Of a DNA stretch of 36,457 nt, positions 2,781 to 35,400 are shown in pieces. Each line of letters opens with the position of its first letter. Position 1 is the first letter of the stretch. Below the pieces are notes generated by a model. It was not told the origin of the DNA. It saw nothing but the letters and a program-made list of their open reading frames with translations, and ran no database searches. The stretch lies in IMG/VR virus record IMGVR_UViG_3300035670_000696, positions 1-36,457 of that record; one strand, 5' to 3'. A program made the translations under genes and the position numbers. Source of the DNA: a virus.

Positions 2781-3112
2781 GCGTAACCCGCCTCCAACAG
2801 AAGCGGCACGAACGCGCCGAATCGGATGATCACCGGCCAGTCCTCTATCGACGCTGGCCCTTGACCGTCGAGCCGCAGCACCGCGAACGGCAAGCGCGTG
2901 CCGTCGCCGCGTTCGGCCTGCTGACGCAGTGCAGCGGACGGGTTGAACCCGCGCCGCGCCTTCACCTCGATGTCGAGACCTGGCACCCCGGTGATATCAC
3001 TGCCAGCACGTCCAGCCCCGACGGGTTCCGCGTACGGGAATCCGTGCGTGCGTAGGTAGTCCGCGACGATTCTCTGGCTCGCGTAGCCTCTGTGCTTCCG
3101 GTGCTGACTCAT
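2777..3112 (-). CDS. PD-(D/E)xK nuclease, Hjc-like
   Basis: A 111-residue protein with a compact restriction-endonuclease fold. GYASQRIVADYLRTHGF forms the first helix, and GSDITGVPGLDIEVKAR (about residues 37-53) supplies the D...D-x-E-x-K catalytic residues. This architecture is shared by Holliday-junction resolvases and VRR-like nucleases of phages. The start is the ATG at 3112 (MSQHRKHRG), overlapping the upstream stop as ATGA. Its position between the Erf-like and SSB genes supports a role in recombination or resolution of branched DNA. The exact substrate is inferred. Confidence 0.65.
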   Translation of the reverse strand: MSQHRKHRGYASQRIVADYLRTHGFPYAEPVGAGRAGSDITGVPGLDIEVKARRGFNPSAALRQQAERGDGTRLPFAVLRLDGQGPASIEDWPVIIRFGAFVPLLLEAGYA

Positions 3113-5026: not shown

Positions 5027-5060
5027 GGTTGTCCTTCGTGTGTTGGTTGGGTTGGGGGCC

Positions 5061-5095
5061 GGACCGGCGCGGGTGGGGGGACGCCGCGCCGATCC
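5061..5095 (-). terminator. Strong hairpin downstream of the 116-aa gene
   Basis: GGACCGGCGCGG pairs with CCGCGCCGATCC (one mismatch in 12) around an 11-nt loop, starting seven bases past the stop codon at 5102. There is no U run, which is common for GC-rich actinobacterial terminators. It would close the transcription unit that begins at the promoter module at 5490-5564. Confidence 0.55.
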
Positions 5096-5101
5096 GGGGT
5101 C

Positions 5102-5452
5102 TCAGATTTCCCAGACGGCCCAGGTGCCGTCGGGCCGGATCGTCGCGTAACTGCCCGTTGCGTTCTGGCTGTTCGCCTTGGCGACGAACTCGACGATCTC
5201 GCGGGCCATGCTGTAGTCCACCGCGCCGTCAAGTGGTGACGTTCCGGTGTACGCGAGGACGTAGACGCCTTCGATGGGATCGACCTCGACTGCTTCGGTC
5301 CAGATGCCTGCGACCTTGTTGCGGAGTGCAATCGGGACGAATACGGTCACGCCGCCTGGGTAGCCGCTCATAAGCGCCTTCGCTGCCGCGATCTGCATCG
5401 CGGTGGGGCACCAGCGTGTTTCCAGGTCGTCGATCAGTTCGGTTGTCATCAT
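5102..5452 (-). CDS. Hypothetical protein of a self-contained cassette
   Basis: A 116-residue acidic protein. Residues 5-30 are helical (ELIDDLETRWCPTAMQIAAAKAL), then beta-rich (GVTVFVPIALRNKVAGIWTEAVEVD), ending ATIRPDGTWAVWEI. The start is the ATG at 5452 with AGGAAGG 7 nt upstream; an in-frame ATG follows directly. No family is recognised. It has its own promoter module (5490-5564) and a hairpin after the stop, so it is a one-gene unit inside the early operon. Its promoter is shared with the DUF932 cassette at 31332-32505, so the two are probably co-regulated. Confidence 0.65.
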   Translation of the reverse strand: MMTTELIDDLETRWCPTAMQIAAAKALMSGYPGGVTVFVPIALRNKVAGIWTEAVEVDPIEGVYVLAYTGTSPLDGAVDYSMAREIVEFVAKANSQNATGSYATIRPDGTWAVWEI

Positions 5453-5489
5453 TGAAGTGCCTTCCTGTTGTCGGTGTTGCGGACAAGGG

Positions 5490-5564
5490 CAACACTATCG
5501 ACTCGACTGTGACTTTCCGGCACATTTCGCGTGGTTTCCGGGATCGTTATCAAGTCGTTATCAA
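5490..5564 (-). promoter_or_regulatory. Promoter/operator module, copy A
   Basis: Read on the minus strand: two tandem copies of TTGATAACGA with an 11-bp period (5564-5555 and 5553-5544), then about 45 bp later AAGTCACAGTC and a -10-like GATAGT (5499-5494). The predicted transcript start is near 5487, about 35 nt before the ATG at 5452. The same elements at almost identical spacing occur at 32511-32584. No good TTGACA -35 is present, suggesting activation or an extended promoter. The upstream repeats overlap the stop of the HNH gene (TGATAA). Confidence 0.6.
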
Positions 5565-5995
5565 CTGCGGCGGAGGGTCTTTTGTCGGTGGCACCAGGTG
5601 CAGAGGGCGCGAAGGTTGTCCCTCTCGTTCAGGCGGTCGATCTCGTCCTGGCTCCGCGCCGACGACAGAGGCACGATGTGGTCCACCTCGAGAGGGCCGG
5701 ACCTGCCGCAGCGTTCACACGCACCCCCGGCGCGCCGCAGCACAGCCTGCCTTTCCTTGTGGTACAGCGGCGACCGATACCCGCGCCGCCACGGTTGGCG
5801 TTGCAGTCGCTCCTCCTCAGTCTTAGGACCGAGGATCGGGTCATGCTCCGGGCAGAACGACTTAGCCGACCGGCGACCGCAGATGCGGCACGCCACCGGG
5901 GTCGCGTAATGCTGCCCCATGTGATCCGCGCACCGCGACTCGCCCGTGGTGACACGTTTGCCGCAGACGGTGCAGGCGCGAGGCAGTCCAGGCAT
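5561..5995 (-). CDS. HNH endonuclease with N-terminal zinc ribbons
   Basis: A 144-residue protein. Residues 8-52 contain several Cys/His pairs (CTVCGKRV, CADHMGQH, CRICGRR, FCPEH) that look like zinc ribbons. The C-terminal HNH domain (about residues 92-140) has CERCGRSGPLEVDHIVPLSS, RDNLRALCTWCH and the basic end RQKTLRRS. A homing or nicking nuclease role is expected from the family. It follows the Myb-like gene with no gap (TAG then ATG). Confidence 0.8.
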   Translation of the reverse strand: MPGLPRACTVCGKRVTTGESRCADHMGQHYATPVACRICGRRSAKSFCPEHDPILGPKTEEERLQRQPWRRGYRSPLYHKERQAVLRRAGGACERCGRSGPLEVDHIVPLSSARSQDEIDRLNERDNLRALCTWCHRQKTLRRS

Positions 5996-8145: not shown

Positions 8146-8456
8146 ACGCTCACCCCGTCGTGTTCACCGTTCAGCCAGATGGCTAGCGACTCGATTGCCA
8201 CCTGTCGGTTGTGTTCGTCGAGGAAGTTGAGTTCTCCGACGTAACAGCCACCCGATCCTTGGGCGATTGCGCGGGCGACATCGATCAGGACACGCTCGCC
8301 GGATGACCACGCCCAGTCGTCGGGTGCGAGGCATTCCAGGTCGATGGTGTTCCGGTCGAGGTCGAGGGCTGCCCCGGCGCGGGGATGCCCGTTCAGTGCT
8401 GAGAAGGTCCACAGATAGCGCAACGCGGCGCGGCTGCGGTTACTGACTGTGATCAT
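8142..8456 (-). CDS. Hypothetical early protein
   Basis: A 104-residue protein (MITVSNRSRAALRYLWTFSA...) with alternating beta and helix character, including HNRQVAIESLAIWLNGEHDG near the end. The ATG at 8456 overlaps the excisionase stop as ATGA. No motif ties it to a known function; its position between the switch genes and the replication genes suggests an early regulatory or replication accessory role. Confidence 0.6.
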   Translation of the reverse strand: MITVSNRSRAALRYLWTFSALNGHPRAGAALDLDRNTIDLECLAPDDWAWSSGERVLIDVARAIAQGSGGCYVGELNFLDEHNRQVAIESLAIWLNGEHDGVSV

Positions 8457-8638
8457 CTGCTACTCCCTGCGGTGTTGTTCTGTAGCCATTCGTGAAGTCC
8501 TGCGACGGGTACGCGGATGCGTGACCCAATCCGAACGTGAGGGAATCTGTCGTCACGGATCAGGTCGTAAACGCTGTTCTTGCTCATTCCGAGTGCCTTC
8601 GCAGCCTCCGGGACGGTCCACAACAGGCGGTCGGTCAT
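8453..8638 (-). CDS. xis: Excisionase-like MerR-type HTH protein
   Basis: A 61-residue protein (MTDRLLWTVPEAAKALGMSK...) with the compact winged-helix of the HTH_17/excisionase family: VPEAAKALGMSKNSVYDLIR (residues 9-28), then FPHVRIGSRIRVPVAGLHEWL. Such proteins bend attP DNA and direct integrase toward excision. The start ATG at 8638 overlaps the cro-like stop, so it is expressed with the lytic operon, as expected for Xis. A pure regulator with the same fold cannot be excluded. Confidence 0.75.
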   Translation of the reverse strand: MTDRLLWTVPEAAKALGMSKNSVYDLIRDDRFPHVRIGSRIRVPVAGLHEWLQNNTAGSSR

Positions 8639-8856
8639 GCGACCCCCTCGATGCGGCTGATGGCTTCCGGTCGTAGACCGAGCGCCGATGCGATCTTGCG
8701 GACGCTGGAAGGCCGCGCTGGTTGGCCGGCCTCTAGGCGTGCGATGGTCTCGCGTCGGACCCCTGCCTGCTTGGCGAGTTCGCCCTGCGTAAGGCACGCC
8801 TCGAGGCGCGCCCGCTTCAGGGCGTCAGGGATCACGGCGAGGTTCAGGTCGGGCAC
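8635..8856 (-). CDS. Cro-like HTH regulator
   Basis: A 73-residue XRE-family protein: ALKRARLEACLTQGELAKQA then GVRRETIARLEAGQPARPSS, with ALGLRPEAI at the end of the domain. The start is a GTG at 8856 preceded by AGGAGG at 5 nt. It is the first gene of the leftward early operon and diverges from the repressor gene, the position of Cro in lambdoid switches. It probably represses the repressor promoter across the 154-bp intergenic region. Confidence 0.75.
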   Translation of the reverse strand: MPDLNLAVIPDALKRARLEACLTQGELAKQAGVRRETIARLEAGQPARPSSVRKIASALGLRPEAISRIEGVA

Positions 8857-9337: not shown

Positions 9338-10479
9338 TGGCAAGCCTCGAACACAGACCCGAACGACGCAAGCCCTGGCGGATCAGATGGCGGGACGCGA
9401 ATGGGCGCGGCAGATCACGGTCGTTCGCACGGAAGGCCGACGCCCTCCGCTACCTACACGAACTCGATGTGCGGCTCGACCGTGGACACCACCGCGACCC
9501 CACATCGGGGCGCGCCGCCCTCGCGGAGATCGCCGAGACCTGGTACGACCAGAAGGTCTCAGCAGGTCGGAAGCCGTCTACCGTCATCGGCTACCGTTCG
9601 ATACTCGACTCGATCATCCTGCCTAGCCTCGGCGGTGAACCTGTCGCCGCGATCACCTACCCGGCCCTCACGACCTGGCTGCGGGACCTCGATCACCTGT
9701 CAGGGTCACGCCGCCGCCACATCATCGGGGTGTTGGCGCAGGTCCTCGACATGGGTGTGAGGCTCGGGCACATCGACACGAATCCGGCGCGGCTGCTGGA
9801 CAAGCCGACCGTGGCTCCACGCCGACGACACCGCTACCTCGACCACCGGCAACTGCACGACCTCGCCAACGCCTGCGGCGACTACCGCCCGTTCATTCTC
9901 CTGCTCGGGTACACGGGTCTCCGGTGGGGTGAGGCCGCCGCGCTGCGCGGCAGCGACGTAGATCGGGTGCGCGGGCTGATCCATGTGGACAGGTCGCAGA
10001 CTGAGGCCGGAGGCAGCGTCGCGTACGTCGCACCCAAGACGCATCAGCGGCGCGATGTGCCGGTCCCTGACCTGGTGCTGGATGTCCTGCAGGACACCGG
10101 AGATGCCCTGCTGTTCACCGCGCCGCGTAGAGGGCCGCTGAGACACCGAAACTTCGCCCGAGGTGTCTGGCTACCCGCGACGGTAGAAAGTGGCTGTGAG
10201 GGCCTTCGTGTCCACGAATTGAGGCATACGGCGGCGAGCCTTGCCCGTGCCGCTGGTGCTGATGCGTTCGTGGTCGCCCGGATGCTGGGTCACGGTGACG
10301 CGTCGATCACCGCCAAGACGTACGCCGATCTGTTCGACATCGAACTCGGGTTGGTGCGCCGCCGGATGCAGGACGCCGCCACACAAGCCTTGGGTCACGC
10401 CTGGGTCACACCAGAACGGGATACACAGGTGCAGACGGGTACGCGGAGTGACAATCAGTGGCGCGAAACCGCAGGGTAA
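9337..10479 (+). CDS. int: Tyrosine site-specific integrase
   Basis: A 380-residue integrase that recombines attP with a host tRNA-Asn gene. An N-terminal arm-binding domain (about residues 1-55, RWRDANGRGRSRSFARKADA) is followed by a SAM-like core-binding domain (60-155) and the catalytic domain. The catalytic residues are visible: R196 (TGLRWGEA), K234, H293 and R296 (HELRHTAASL), H319 (MLGHGDAS) and nucleophile Y329 (KTYADL). The start overlaps the repressor stop. The 3' end of the gene itself contains one of two 32-bp repeats flanking attP. Confidence 0.96.
   Translation: MASLEHRPERRKPWRIRWRDANGRGRSRSFARKADALRYLHELDVRLDRGHHRDPTSGRAALAEIAETWYDQKVSAGRKPSTVIGYRSILDSIILPSLGGEPVAAITYPALTTWLRDLDHLSGSRRRHIIGVLAQVLDMGVRLGHIDTNPARLLDKPTVAPRRRHRYLDHRQLHDLANACGDYRPFILLLGYTGLRWGEAAALRGSDVDRVRGLIHVDRSQTEAGGSVAYVAPKTHQRRDVPVPDLVLDVLQDTGDALLFTAPRRGPLRHRNFARGVWLPATVESGCEGLRVHELRHTAASLARAAGADAFVVARMLGHGDASITAKTYADLFDIELGLVRRRMQDAATQALGHAWVTPERDTQVQTGTRSDNQWRETAG
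10389..10420 (+). repeat. attP-flanking 32-bp direct repeat, copy 1
   Basis: Contains two TGGGTCAC boxes with an 11-bp period and ends CAGAACGGG. It matches 10630-10661 at 30 of 32 positions. It lies inside the integrase coding end and encodes LGHAWVTPER. Its placement on one side of the attachment core suggests an arm-type binding site for integrase. Confidence 0.6.
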
Positions 10480-10573: not shown

Positions 10574-10629
10574 CAGAAACCCCAGATCAGGGGGGTGATG
10601 CCGCCTCACACACGACACCACCCACCCGA

Positions 10630-10661
10630 CTTGGGTCACGCCTGGGTCACATCAGAACAGG
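10630..10661 (+). repeat. attP-flanking 32-bp direct repeat, copy 2
   Basis: Second copy of the repeat at 10389-10420, with two substitutions, again carrying two TGGGTCAC boxes 11 bp apart. It overlaps the last codons of the convergent endolysin gene. In the plus-strand frame it would read LGHAWVTSEQ, nearly the integrase C-terminal peptide, so it may be a duplicated integrase end retained as an arm site. Confidence 0.6.
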
Positions 10662-28162: not shown

Positions 28163-28392
28163 GCTTCACTCCCAGGTAGCCGCTGCATCCACGCGACCAT
28201 CTGGCGCGGGATGATGGCTTCCCCGTCTACGACTTCGGTCGTGTCGCTGGTCAGGTACTTCGCGTGATGCAGCACCAGGCAGTCCCGGTAGACGCCGACG
28301 AGGACGCCACGCAAGGAGGCACCGGCGGTTGTGTGAACGACGACTGTCTCCCGCACAACCTTCGGAAGCCACCTCACTTGGACTATGTTCAT
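28159..28392 (-). CDS. LSm-like small protein
   Basis: A 77-residue protein (MNIVQVRWLPKVVRETVVVH...) with a beta-barrel-like pattern: VRETVVVHTTAGASLRGVLV, YRDCLVLHHAKYL, EAIIPRQMVAWMQRLP. The strand-turn order resembles Sm/LSm folds. ATGA overlaps at both ends couple it to the glycosyltransferase and portal genes. Whether it binds RNA or is a small head accessory protein is unknown. Confidence 0.55.
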   Translation of the reverse strand: MNIVQVRWLPKVVRETVVVHTTAGASLRGVLVGVYRDCLVLHHAKYLTSDTTEVVDGEAIIPRQMVAWMQRLPGSEA

Positions 28393-29468
28393 GGGGCGGT
28401 CACAACCTGCCGCAGCAGTGAATCCCACTCGCGGCCGCGCTGTGTCATCGAGAACTCCTGCGACACCAATGCGCGTTGCCGTGCCGCCTCGCGCTTCCGC
28501 ACCTTCGGATCGAGTAGGTCAGTGATGTGTTTTATCCAATCATCGGGATGCGACGCGACGCGACCGATGCCGAGGTCAGCGAGCCGCACATACTCCGGTG
28601 ACGCGGCAGCGACGAACGGGATACCCGCAGCGGCGTATTCGAGTCCCTTGATTGTGGACTTCGCGTGGTTGAACGGAATGTCAGTAAGCGGCACCAACCC
28701 AATCTGGAACCCATCGAACAGGTTCGGGTAGTCGAGGATCGGGCACATCGGTGAGGTGGACACAATCTCTAGTGGAACGCCGGTTTTGTCCGCGAGGCTG
28801 CCGCGCCCGTCCAGATGCCCGCTGTGGTGCAGGCGCAGCCCGTGGCGTTCGACGAACTGCGGCATCCATTCCCGCATCGTCTCAAGGTCGCCAGACCGCC
28901 AGGGAATACCGCCGACCCATCCGAGTGTCGGTGTCCAGCCCGCGCTGTCCTTCTGGCGATACCAGCGGCCCGTGTCGATCCCGTTCCGCACCATGTGCAC
29001 GTTCGGGTGCCGTTCCGTGTACCAATCGCGCAGGAACGGTGTCGAGGTGATCACGACATCGGCGGCCTCGATCACGCGCTCGTAGTGGTCGCGATTCCGG
29101 TCCGGGTTGAAGTTCGGGTCAGTGACCAGGTGCGCCTGATTGTCCGGGGTTAGCCCCGCGTAGAAGTCGTCCACATCGACGATGACGATCTGGCCGGCCT
29201 TGCGTGCCTGCTTGACATGATGCGGTGTCTCACGGTCCATCAGCAGTTTCAGCACGACGACATCCCATCCAGCGATGGTGGTGTCGCGTGTGTGCCGCAG
29301 CCCGAACCCGCGACCGAGATCCCAATCGGGGATACCCATGCCGACCTGCCAGCCGTGCTGTTGCAGTTCCATCATCGGCAGGTAGCAGCGATACCAGGCG
29401 CAGCCACCGGGCTGCAACGGGTTCGTGCCAGGGGAGAAGTCGCGGGTCAGAAACGCGACGCTAGGCAT
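28389..29468 (-). CDS. GT4-like glycosyltransferase
   Basis: A 359-residue GT-B glycosyltransferase. The N-terminal domain (1-165) includes GGCAWYRCYLPMMELQQHGW, IVIVDVDDFYAGLTPDNQAH and DVVITSTPFLRDWYTERHPN. The C-terminal donor domain has LGWVGGIPWRSGDLETMREW, GLVPLTDIPFNHAKSTIKGLE and YAAAGIPFVAAASPEYVRLA, matching GT4 donor-binding motifs. Encoded within the late operon next to head genes, it could glycosylate virion proteins (documented for glycosyltransferases of other actinophages) or the cell envelope. It overlaps the upstream gene by eight bases. Confidence 0.85.
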   Translation of the reverse strand: MPSVAFLTRDFSPGTNPLQPGGCAWYRCYLPMMELQQHGWQVGMGIPDWDLGRGFGLRHTRDTTIAGWDVVVLKLLMDRETPHHVKQARKAGQIVIVDVDDFYAGLTPDNQAHLVTDPNFNPDRNRDHYERVIEAADVVITSTPFLRDWYTERHPNVHMVRNGIDTGRWYRQKDSAGWTPTLGWVGGIPWRSGDLETMREWMPQFVERHGLRLHHSGHLDGRGSLADKTGVPLEIVSTSPMCPILDYPNLFDGFQIGLVPLTDIPFNHAKSTIKGLEYAAAGIPFVAAASPEYVRLADLGIGRVASHPDDWIKHITDLLDPKVRKREAARQRALVSQEFSMTQRGREWDSLLRQVVTAP

Positions 29469-31213: not shown

Positions 31214-31225
31214 CTGGCTCCCTCC

Positions 31226-31243
31226 GGTAGTCGTCCGACTACC
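31226..31243. promoter_or_regulatory. 18-bp perfect palindrome before the HTH gene
   Basis: GGTAGTCG-TC-CGACTACC, two perfect 8-bp arms with a 2-bp centre, immediately upstream of the ribosome site of the HTH gene. The length and symmetry suit a dimeric repressor operator; as RNA it would form a tight hairpin adjacent to the ribosome site. It lies between that gene and the DUF932 terminator. Confidence 0.5.
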
Positions 31244-31283
31244 CGACGAGTAAAGCGTCGCGGTTCTGTCACACCTGCCACAT

Positions 31284-31317
31284 GCGAAACCCCCGGCGGG
31301 GGTGGCCGGGGGTTCGC
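31284..31317 (-). terminator. Terminator hairpin of the DUF932 cassette
   Basis: GCGAAACCCCCGG pairs with CCGGGGGTTCGC, a 12-bp stem with a single bulged A and a 9-nt loop, 15 bases beyond the DUF932 stop. There is no U run. It separates the cassette from the downstream accessory genes, making the DUF932 unit transcriptionally self-contained. Confidence 0.7.
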
Positions 31318-31331
31318 AGTCGGGCGGGTGA

Positions 31332-32330
31332 TCAGGCGGTGATCAGTTCCAGCGCCCGCGACTTGATGTCGTCAGTGCCACCGAGCAGGTTCCGTTCGGC
31401 GCGGACCAGATCAGCACCCTTGGCGGCGCGAACCGGATGCGCCCAGTCCGCGTATTCGACGAATGCCTGCCACGCGCCCCAGGCGGTGTGCCGGATGTTC
31501 TGCTGGGTGTCGCCACGGTAGATGTCCATCACGGTCTCGCGGGTGCGGGTGACGGCGTTCACCTGGCGGTCGGTGGCGTCATCGTCCAGCGGGTACGCCT
31601 CCTGGATGATCCGCCAGAACCGCTGGTCGGTCATCGGCTGGCTCAGCAGGTCGGTGGCGAACCCGTGGAACGCCTCAGCCTCCGCATAGATCACCTTCAG
31701 TGTCTGGCGAATCTGCTGCACCTTGACATCCATCTTGGAGGTGTGCTTCAGGCTGACACCCGAGAGGTTCTGCCACCCAGCCATGCCGTTCGTGCAGATC
31801 AGTCGCAGGTGCTTGACCTCGATCCGCAGCGCCTGGTTGCCGTCGTGCCCGTTGCTGGCCACGATGTAGGTGTCCACCGCGTCAGTGCCACCGATCGTGA
31901 CGGTCTCCGGCATCTTGGCGGCGATGTAGATGCGGCTGCCGCCCTTGATCTCGCCAGCGGAGTCGTAGAGCGCGCCTGCCTCGTAGGTAACCCCGTCGAT
32001 GATGTCGGCGATCTCCGCGTTCTGTACGACCGAGTAGGACGGCGACACGACCCCGAGGACCTTGGCGGAGCCGTCGGCGTTCACCCGTGTCGTGGCGATC
32101 CGTCCGGGCACCTCGACTGAGGTGACACCGGAGTTGGTGAGAACGGTCGCGGTCAGTGGTGCCTTCTCGACGGTCCAGTCCAGACCGGCCTTGGTGATGA
32201 CCTCGGCGGCTGAGACCCCGGCCTTGGTGTCGTTGATCCACGAGGCGCGGGTGCGCCACGGTGCGGTGCGTAGGCGGCTATCGGTGACCTTCACTGAGTC
32301 GCCGACCTTGGGGGAGGTGGTTGTGTTCAT
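31332..32330 (-). CDS. DUF932 (LGT-type phage/plasmid) protein
   Basis: A 332-residue protein (MNTTTSPKVGDSVKVTDSRL...) matching DUF932: WINDTKAGVSAAEVITKAGLDW, SPSYSVVQNAEIADIIDGVT, KMPETVTIGGTDAVDTYIVA, RLICTNGMAGWQNL and the helical tail with AWQAFVEYADWAHP. Family members occur on phages and plasmids and are of unknown function. The start is the ATG at 32330, with AAGGAG spaced 8 nt; an upstream in-frame extension to 32453 overlaps the 56-aa gene and is rejected. It has its own promoter and terminator inside the late operon. Confidence 0.85.
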   Translation of the reverse strand: MNTTTSPKVGDSVKVTDSRLRTAPWRTRASWINDTKAGVSAAEVITKAGLDWTVEKAPLTATVLTNSGVTSVEVPGRIATTRVNADGSAKVLGVVSPSYSVVQNAEIADIIDGVTYEAGALYDSAGEIKGGSRIYIAAKMPETVTIGGTDAVDTYIVASNGHDGNQALRIEVKHLRLICTNGMAGWQNLSGVSLKHTSKMDVKVQQIRQTLKVIYAEAEAFHGFATDLLSQPMTDQRFWRIIQEAYPLDDDATDRQVNAVTRTRETVMDIYRGDTQQNIRHTAWGAWQAFVEYADWAHPVRAAKGADLVRAERNLLGGTDDIKSRALELITA

Positions 32331-32334
32331 GGTG

Positions 32335-32505
32335 TTACTCCTTCTCGTTCTTGTCGGTTGCGGTGATGTAGTGCTCTGCCAGGGCGTTGGCGTCCCGGCG
32401 GCTGGGTGCGGAGCCGATGCGGTCTCCGTCGATGCAGACCACGTAGCGGACACCCATCGGGGTGGTCTCGCGAGTGATCTTGACCTGTGCAGTGGTGTTG
32501 TTCAT
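32335..32505 (-). CDS. 56-residue protein, first gene of the DUF932 cassette
   Basis: A small gene (MNNTTAQVKITRETTPMGVR...) with a short beta-strand core (YVVCIDGDRIGSAPSRRDAN) and a helix, ending TATDKNEKE. Its last codons carry the AAGGAG ribosome site of the DUF932 gene, and its stop is four bases before that ATG, so the two are coupled. Its own ATG has no ribosome site and lies only about three bases after the predicted transcript start, so translation is probably leaderless. Function unknown. Confidence 0.7.
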   Translation of the reverse strand: MNNTTAQVKITRETTPMGVRYVVCIDGDRIGSAPSRRDANALAEHYITATDKNEKE

Positions 32506-32510
32506 GGGTA

Positions 32511-32584
32511 CAACACTATGACCTGAGTGTGACTTGTCTACCTGACTACTGAGATTCGGGGCTTTGTTACTAAATCGTTATCAA
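32511..32584 (-). promoter_or_regulatory. Promoter/operator module, copy B
   Basis: Read on the minus strand: TTGATAACGA (32584-32575), a degenerate second copy TTAGTAACAA 11 bp later (32573-32564), AAGTCACACTC, and a -10 CATAGT (32520-32515). The transcript would start near 32508, about three bases before the ATG at 32505. The elements and spacing match 5490-5564 over 74-75 bp, and the upstream repeat overlaps the terminase stop (TGATAA) as copy A overlaps the HNH stop. Confidence 0.65.
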
Positions 32585-34022: not shown

Positions 34023-34499
34023 CTACCCGTCGAGGTCACGGTTCAGGGACGCGAGGATCGACTCGCCAGCGAGTTGCATCAGACCGAGGCGCAGTCGAGC
34101 CGCGAGCGTCAGACCGTACTCCTGGGCGATGCGTAGGTAGTTCTGCGCCTCGTCGCGTGCCACCTTTACCGCAGGGTTCACGGTCACGCGACCGTTCTGC
34201 AGCAGCATCACGCCGTGCCGTGCGATGAAGGCGCGGGCGAGTTGATGCACGTACGCGGAGTGCACCATCATCGCCAACGCCTCCATGTCCGCCTCGCGTA
34301 GCCCGCGTGGGGCCAGTTCATCGACGACCCGCTGGTACATCGCCTGCGCTTCTTCCGGCAGCGCCTCAGGCATGGCGAACATCGGTGCGGCGGTCGGATC
34401 GACTGCGACGATCTCCGCGCCATTCTGCTCGGCAGGGATCGGTCGGTTTCCGGTCTTGCGCCGCGCCCGTGTCGGGTCCGCCGGTCTACCCTTCGGCAT
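34023..34499 (-). CDS. terS: Terminase small subunit, P27-like
   Basis: A 158-residue protein with the P27-family layout: a basic N-terminus (MPKGRPADPTRARRKTGNRP), MPEALPEEAQAMYQRVVDEL, ADMEALAMMVHSAYVHQLAR, then NPAVKVARDEAQNYLRIAQE and GLTLAARLRLGLMQL. It recognises the packaging site and hands DNA to the large subunit directly downstream. The ATG at 34499 overlaps the glycosyltransferase end by 14 bp. Confidence 0.88.
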   Translation of the reverse strand: MPKGRPADPTRARRKTGNRPIPAEQNGAEIVAVDPTAAPMFAMPEALPEEAQAMYQRVVDELAPRGLREADMEALAMMVHSAYVHQLARAFIARHGVMLLQNGRVTVNPAVKVARDEAQNYLRIAQEYGLTLAARLRLGLMQLAGESILASLNRDLDG

Positions 34500-35400
34500 T
34501 GGCGCGCTTCTTCCGCCGGTTCGTGGTCTTTCCAGTGGACTCCAACCGCATCCGGTACTGCGTATCAGTCGGCGGCGTGTAGTCGTCGCGTGGGATCAGA
34601 GGCGTGTTGCGCCACTTGCTGTAATCGACGTAATGGTGATCTCGCCCGTAGCGGCGTGCGTGGCTGGCGACATCCGGGTGCGCCTTCACCAGCATGTCGG
34701 ACTTCGGGAACGTTCCTTCTTTCGCGTAGAACGCCTCCGTGTTGCCGCCTTTCATCACCTGCGTACGCAGTTTGTTTTGCAGGAACGCGTAGAACTGCAC
34801 CGTGTTCCAACCGGCCTTCAGCATGTCCAGGGACAAGATCGTGTCCTCGTTGTATCGGCCCCGCCACCGGAACGGCACATCGTTGCGGATCAGGTTGCAG
34901 GAGTAGACACGGGTGCCCGTGATGAACGGAGGCAGTTTCGAGCGTGCAGGCGCGAATGACCAATAGTGCGGACCCGCCATGCCGATGTTCTGGTAGCGGA
35001 GAACGAACTCCTCCATCGCGTGAAAGATCATCCCGTCACCGACGCGTATGCGGCGGTTCTGGTGCAGGCGACCGAAGTGCAGGATGTTGTCGTCCATCGT
35101 CCAGTGCCATTCGTGGCCTTCGCTGATCGAGTGTTCCCACAAGAAGTTGCGTGACGGTCCGCTGCCTTTCGATTGACCTTCCGGCAGGTCTATCAGCAGT
35201 TCGAACTCGTCCGCGTACTTCTCGTCGCGCACCAGAATCTTCGACGCGGGGAAGTGCGCTCGATACTCCTTGTACTGCTGCTCCTCGATCACGAGGCGAT
35301 ACGGCACACCCATCTCGTCCAGCACGCGAGGCGTCGTCGCGATGTCAGCCCTCGACTTCGATGGGATGTAGACGGGGAACCGTGGCAGGAACACGGTCAC
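34486..35400 (-). CDS. TET-associated (TAGT/GREB1-like) glycosyltransferase
   Basis: A 304-residue GT-A-type protein. PVYIPSKSRA (residues 9-18), the SGPSRNFLWEHSISEG segment and WHWTMDDNILHFGR (98-111, with the DDN donor/metal motif) match the glycosyltransferases associated with TET/JBP-type base modification and the GREB1 C-terminal domain. Such enzymes are proposed to glycosylate modified bases in phage DNA. Here it lies between a ParB-like gene and the small terminase gene. No TET/JBP dioxygenase is recognised in the window, so the substrate is open: DNA base, virion protein or surface glycan. Confidence 0.7.
   Translation of the reverse strand: MTVFLPRFPVYIPSKSRADIATTPRVLDEMGVPYRLVIEEQQYKEYRAHFPASKILVRDEKYADEFELLIDLPEGQSKGSGPSRNFLWEHSISEGHEWHWTMDDNILHFGRLHQNRRIRVGDGMIFHAMEEFVLRYQNIGMAGPHYWSFAPARSKLPPFITGTRVYSCNLIRNDVPFRWRGRYNEDTILSLDMLKAGWNTVQFYAFLQNKLRTQVMKGGNTEAFYAKEGTFPKSDMLVKAHPDVASHARRYGRDHHYVDYSKWRNTPLIPRDDYTPPTDTQYRMRLESTGKTTNRRKKRANAEG

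Follow-up and report, generated by a model that had tools for sequence, protein, structure and literature searches.

A twice-used putative promoter module with a likely box for the host regulator MtrA in a phage of probable actinobacterial origin

A 75-bp module that occurs twice in one phage genome raises the question of whether it is a promoter and, if so, which protein reads it. The window, meaning the whole stretch of DNA analysed, comprises 36,457 bp and represents a complete virus record, with phage genes chiefly on the minus strand. Its left part codes for an integrase, an excisionase-like HTH protein (8453-8797), an O-like replication protein, HNH and RusA proteins, a WhiB protein (2427-2780) and SSB, and its right part contains the terminase, portal, head and tail genes. 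The phage is probably temperate and actinobacterial; a search for prophages with its TerL among 396 Actinomycetota genomes gave distant matches only (31-44% identity). Copy A of the module has the HNH gene upstream and a 116-aa orphan gene downstream; copy B stands between the TerL gene and a gene for a 56-aa protein, which is followed by a DUF932 gene.

The duplication had been claimed in a preliminary description of the window, and both copies were found in place on the minus strand. When copy A was compared with the whole window, the best non-self match was copy B, and reciprocally (local score 21; runners-up 14 and 12). Allowing one mismatch, the tandem box of the module was present at only two places in the window, A and B, and was absent from 300 simulated first-order Markov sequences. 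In both copies, the distance from TTGATAACGA to AAGTCACA amounts to 49 bp, and that from AAGTCACA to ATAGTGTTG is 17 bp in A and 16 bp in B. AAGTCACA, which had been listed as a shared element, is indeed common to A and B, but was not kept in the two relatives used for comparison, G002 (the closest, with a TerL 86% identical) and G003 (TerL 63% identical). The exact pattern AAGTCACA-TC-...-ATAGTGTTG was not found in viral contigs, and blastn searches of 50,697 phage records with either region gave no match.

The elements of the two copies are as follows.

5546..5562, minus strand: tandem box of copy A, GATAACGACTTGATAAC, with an 11-bp period, the proposed MtrA box (from the sequence and the C. 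glutamicum consensus, PMC3353115)
5492..5497, minus strand: predicted -10 of promoter A, TAGTGT, of the TANNNT type, 48 bp after the box
5474..5495, minus strand: perfect palindrome GTGTTGC-N8-GCAACAC, operator-like, over the -10 and the predicted start of A
32566..32582, minus strand: tandem box of copy B, GATAACGATTTAGTAAC, the proposed MtrA box (from the sequence)
32535..32540, minus strand: possible -35 of promoter B, TAGACA, with a spacer of 16; hexamer and spacer are identical in G002
32513..32518, minus strand: predicted -10 of promoter B, TAGTGT, 47 bp after the box
32495..32516, minus strand: perfect palindrome GTGTTGT-N8-ACAACAC, operator-like, over the first codons of the 56-aa gene

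Both A and B match the 17-bp core GRTAACGAYTYRRTAAC with 0 mismatches, the core being a direct repeat RTAAC-N6-RTAAC with an 11-bp period. The first repeat holds the stop codon of the upstream gene in both copies, the TGA of the HNH gene at 5561-5563 in A and that of the TerL gene at 32581-32583 in B. The arrangement described previously, with repeats of one helical turn upstream of a -10 and small cargo cassettes closed by hairpins, was supported. The absence of a good -35 is true of A; B, however, has a fair one (TAGACA-N16-TAGTGT, 5/6), as has G002. The 22-bp palindrome over the -10 and the start had been overlooked. In its general form, GTGTTGY-N8-RCAACAC, it was found at A and B only, even at two mismatches; with both elements, box and palindrome, confined to these places, the notion of a two-cassette regulon holds within the window.

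Among 126 viral matches to the box half-site with TARTGTTG, the second repeat and the palindrome were found together in this lineage only. In an alignment of A, B, G002 and G003, the invariant blocks are TTGATAACGA-YTYRRTAAC, TARTGTTG and CAACA. From the end of the box to the -10 there are 48 bp in A, 47 bp in B and 38 bp in both G002 and G003, which places the box of the relatives one helical turn closer to the -10, and the palindrome is shorter in G003 than in A and B. The transcripts are predicted to start near 5484 in A and 32505 in B. The mRNA of cassette B is predicted to be leaderless, since the 56-aa ORF begins 7 nt after the -10. A role of the palindrome at the RNA level was considered and dropped, because the predicted start falls in the palindrome loop and the transcript would contain one arm only. 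At the G002 locus (L006, about position 5675, minus strand), the start predicted for the transcript falls on ATG-TAA, a minimal start-stop.

MtrA is the OmpR-family response regulator of MtrAB and a master regulator, which is essential in M. tuberculosis and conserved in Actinomycetota. For C. glutamicum, the MtrA site was identified as (A/G)TAACAATttn(A/G)TAACAAT, a direct repeat with an 11-bp period (PMC3353115). Copy A agrees with this consensus at 16 and copy B at 17 of the 19 positions (counted by hand). On the host side, the pattern GRTAACGATTYGRTAAC was compared with its backwards control in 301 genomes of one actinobacterial family, which resulted in 53 exact matches in 48 of the genomes and 0 for the control. 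Among 35 host loci that were read, the box precedes fas in 22 (L253, assigned by eye, included) and ectA in five, in Mycobacteriales; the boxes at these fas and ectA loci are all oriented as in A and B, and no phage is nearby.

For the fas promoter of M. tuberculosis, an MtrA site was measured with a KD of 4.6e-8 M (PMC11215152), and fas (Rv2524c) was reported as the highest-affinity native MtrA site of this organism (PMC10609481). The link of the box to this site is positional: the flank (primer sequence) of the M. tuberculosis fas fragment that was tested can be aligned with the neighbouring sequence of the M. agri box. In S. venezuelae, MtrA directly activates ectABCD (PMC13189361). The tandem site is likely to be an MtrA-binding box, and MtrA would presumably bind it in the host of this phage.

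In the chromosomes of 43 small-genome Actinomycetes, the box at up to two mismatches was counted 100 times against 99 times for the backwards control (hand sum). Since there is no enrichment, the case for a host MtrA regulon using this box does not extend to the low-GC phages, whose hosts may recognise another consensus, or which may use the box otherwise. In chromosomes of the class, exact boxes were seldom found (4/395, control 0). A scan of genome contigs yielded mostly matches in AT-rich Clostridia and Flavobacterium, with six actinobacterial loci as the only informative part. In Oscillospiraceae and other Clostridia (for example L130, L137, L138 and L140), a box-like 19-mer was often located less than 200 bp from contig ends, as if next to an assembly-breaking repeat. 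Searching the literature for the box sequence strings returned only unrelated primers and similar sequences.

In viruses, the box pattern was identified in at least 120 contigs, compared to 12 for the backwards pattern, an excess of at least tenfold, and the viral box loci have 44 distinct flanks. WhiB-like genes were found at 5 of 119 box loci compared to 0 of 114 control loci. The box is intergenic in most annotated actinophage records, among them those of Gordonia phages (Kenoshavirus and relatives), Corynebacterium phages (Darwin and others) and M. abscessus phages, and lies inside genes in non-actinobacterial phages; as an exception, the copy in Gordonia phage Jodelie19 falls within a predicted small ORF. 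In a further class, which comprises many of the viral loci, the box has the reverse orientation. Here, it is placed exactly 17 bp from a TTGxxx (TTGACA-like) -35 in 10 loci, its end is 39-41 bp from the -10 in nine, and 14 promoters score at least 9, compared to 1.7 in shuffles.

For M. abscessus prophages (phiGD24-3 and relatives; L466, at 3001-3022 of MW314854.1, L476 and L477), the box and a -10-like TAATCT 38 bp downstream of it precede the annotated immunity repressor. In three variants of this region, box and promoter are nearly invariant and the leader diverges. When 37 genomes of one genus, none of them known to contain the repressor region, were searched for it at the DNA level, no match was obtained. 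In a chromosome-borne prophage (L271, around 1500-2113), the box also precedes another repressor-like gene, which is unrelated to the first (PHROGs transcriptional repressor); a fragment of a tyrosine integrase lies close by. Over all these promoters, the box is upstream of the -35 and phased to the promoter, with gaps to the -10 of 48, 47, 38, 38, 38 and 39-41 bp. An array longer than the two-unit box, with several 11-bp units (TTGATAACGA/TTCGGTAACA), was observed on the minus strand at about 307-363 of L040 (3300012942_000047), a viral, high-GC contig of 69 kb.

We consider it probable that A and B are promoter modules consisting of an MtrA box, a TAGTGT -10 and a 22-bp operator palindrome, by which small cassettes would be tuned to the MtrAB system of the host. 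The promoter interpretation of the preliminary description thus stands insofar as a real module is used twice; its binder, however, is most likely host MtrA and not a WhiB, HTH or Cro-like protein of the phage. The centre of the MtrA box would lie some 60 or 70 bp before the start, ahead of a TAGTGT -10 that has a weak -35 or none. An MtrA dimer on the two half-sites would always occupy the same helix face, the distances of 47-48 and 38 bp to the -10 being one turn apart, and bound MtrA would most likely aid RNA polymerase in starting. A second protein, probably a phage regulator, may bind the palindrome and shut the promoter, so that a promoter with two inputs, MtrA and the phage operator, is plausible. 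The small hairpin-closed cassettes, presumably accessory in function, would be expressed according to the MtrAB state, in response to osmotic, envelope and cell-cycle cues, and the stress and cell-wall switch of the host would probably set when they are on. A study of cyanophages found that predicted Pho boxes were not always bound, and it cautions against relying on regulator boxes predicted in phages until their binding has been assayed (PMC10976474).

It is unlikely, although not far-fetched, that MtrA binds while the module serves as a silencer or brake, by repression, DNA looping or blocking. MtrA also represses (PMC13189361), and the consensus-like -35/-10 promoters of the reverse class need no activator. 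However, the box is always upstream of the -35, the position from which C. glutamicum MtrA activates its targets (PMC3353115), and promoter A is without a recognisable -35. From this arrangement we infer that activation by MtrA is more likely than repression.

It is quite improbable that a regulator encoded by the phage (WhiB, the excisionase-like HTH protein or an unseen repressor) binds the repeats and that the likeness to MtrA sites is convergence. WhiB and HTH proteins are encoded by this phage. A and B both bear the lineage-specific palindrome, so that a phage regulator probably acts at that second site. However, the box itself is present at an equal or helically equivalent distance in unrelated phages and also ahead of host fas and ectA, which a phage-private regulator leaves unexplained.

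Equally improbable is the binding of another host regulator of the OmpR family with 11-bp repeats, such as GlnR, PhoP, RegX3 or an AfsQ1-like protein. For GlnR, the M. smegmatis box t/gTAAC-n6-Gc/aAAC shares the period, and at some Streptomyces promoters GlnR is in competition with MtrA (PMC10704036). However, both half-sites in the phage are RTAAC, the second one being GTAAC or ATAAC and not GcAAC/GaAAC, which fits MtrA and not the b-site of M. smegmatis GlnR. The genes at the host loci are fas, itself a measured MtrA site, and ectA, and no nitrogen-assimilation gene was recognised among the 35 loci read, which counts against GlnR. That the likeness arose by chance from the TGATAA tandem stops of the upstream genes is hardly credible: the first repeat in A and B does include the upstream stop codon, but the second repeat, the -10, the palindrome and the spacing lie beyond it, 300 nulls contained 0 boxes, and the box of G003 reads through as codons at the 3' end of a gene with no tandem stop, while host and other phage copies stand at unrelated genes.

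With the module read as a probable MtrA-dependent promoter, the genes and signals downstream of it are as follows.

5102..5452, minus strand: 116-aa orphan gene, predicted to be under promoter A
5059..5097, minus strand: closing hairpin of cassette A, without a T-run
31218..32580, minus strand: whole cassette B, about 1.3-1.36 kb, with about 60 bp in its place in G002 (tblastx synteny)
32335..32505, minus strand: 56-aa orphan gene, the first in cassette B
31332..32330, minus strand: DUF932 gene, 332 aa, PF06067, phrog_1221
31284..31317, minus strand: closing hairpin of cassette B, terminator-like

The closing hairpins reported for both units proved strong by folding, with -32 kcal/mol and z -5.4 for A (5050-5100) and -32.6 kcal/mol and z -5.1 for B (31275-31325). 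For the 116-aa protein, no relatives were found, and neither this protein nor the 56-aa protein gave anything significant in PHROGs and Pfam. The coordinates of the DUF932 ORF were corrected to 32330-31332. DUF932 is common among actinophages, and the box is not tied to it: none was present within 350 bp upstream of six other actinophage DUF932 genes (at least 6 mismatches).

Both relatives keep the box and the palindrome with different small cargo genes. In G002, the promoter at position A and a similar hairpin at the matching place frame different small genes, and cassette B is missing, with about 60 bp between the TerL gene and the genes that come next; a contig of 100% identity has cassette B intact. 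Since the promoter and hairpin of G002 frame other genes and cassette B is missing there, the promoter appears to be a mount for fast-changing small genes in this lineage.

Morons are autonomous units of promoter, gene and terminator inserted between phage genes. Cassette B resembles them in being an extra unit after TerL, with two genes and a hairpin, between genes that are adjacent in G002; a promoter and a terminator of its own are predicted from the sequence. In contrast to morons, its base composition is not foreign (64% compared to 63.5% GC). Host MtrA promoters, like those of fas in mycobacteria, ectABCD in Streptomyces and NCgl1418, proP and betP in C. glutamicum, share the upstream repeat with an 11-bp period. 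Unlike these, the phage boxes keep a fixed distance to the -10, of 38 or 47-48 bp, and occur in this phage lineage together with the 22-bp palindrome that spans the start.

In cyanophages, genes are controlled by host PhoBR via Pho boxes (PMC10976474, where pstS of P-SSM2 is cited). The likeness consists in a phage promoter with a site for a host regulator of the OmpR/PhoB family, by which phage genes track host physiology; here, however, the putative regulator is MtrA of Actinomycetota, and the cargo consists of small orphan genes. Phage promoters reading a host two-component regulator are thus already known from the Pho boxes, and the case of MtrA would be new; no paper linking MtrA to phage promoters was found in the literature searched, with most subscription journals outside its coverage. 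If phages read MtrA directly, host physiology would be coupled to phage expression, perhaps including the choice between lysis and lysogeny in M. abscessus prophages. More tentatively, and with somewhat less than even confidence, actinophages as a group may wire the transcription of immunity repressors, early operons and accessory cassettes to MtrAB via boxes in fixed phase, in which case the envelope and osmotic state of the host would bias lysogeny and cargo expression.

Two further observations concern other parts of the window. At the end of the integrase gene, a 39-bp repeat occurs twice (10382-10420 and 10623-10661), with internal 11-bp tandem GGGTCACRCC units, which could be arm sites of the integrase or a GTCAC-type regulator site. 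The packaging genes are flanked by two glycosyltransferases (34486-35400 and 28389-29468), one of which is a glucosyltransferase related to beta-glucosyl-HMC-alpha-glucosyltransferase and the other a second glycosyltransferase; this hints at modified DNA or glycosylated particles.
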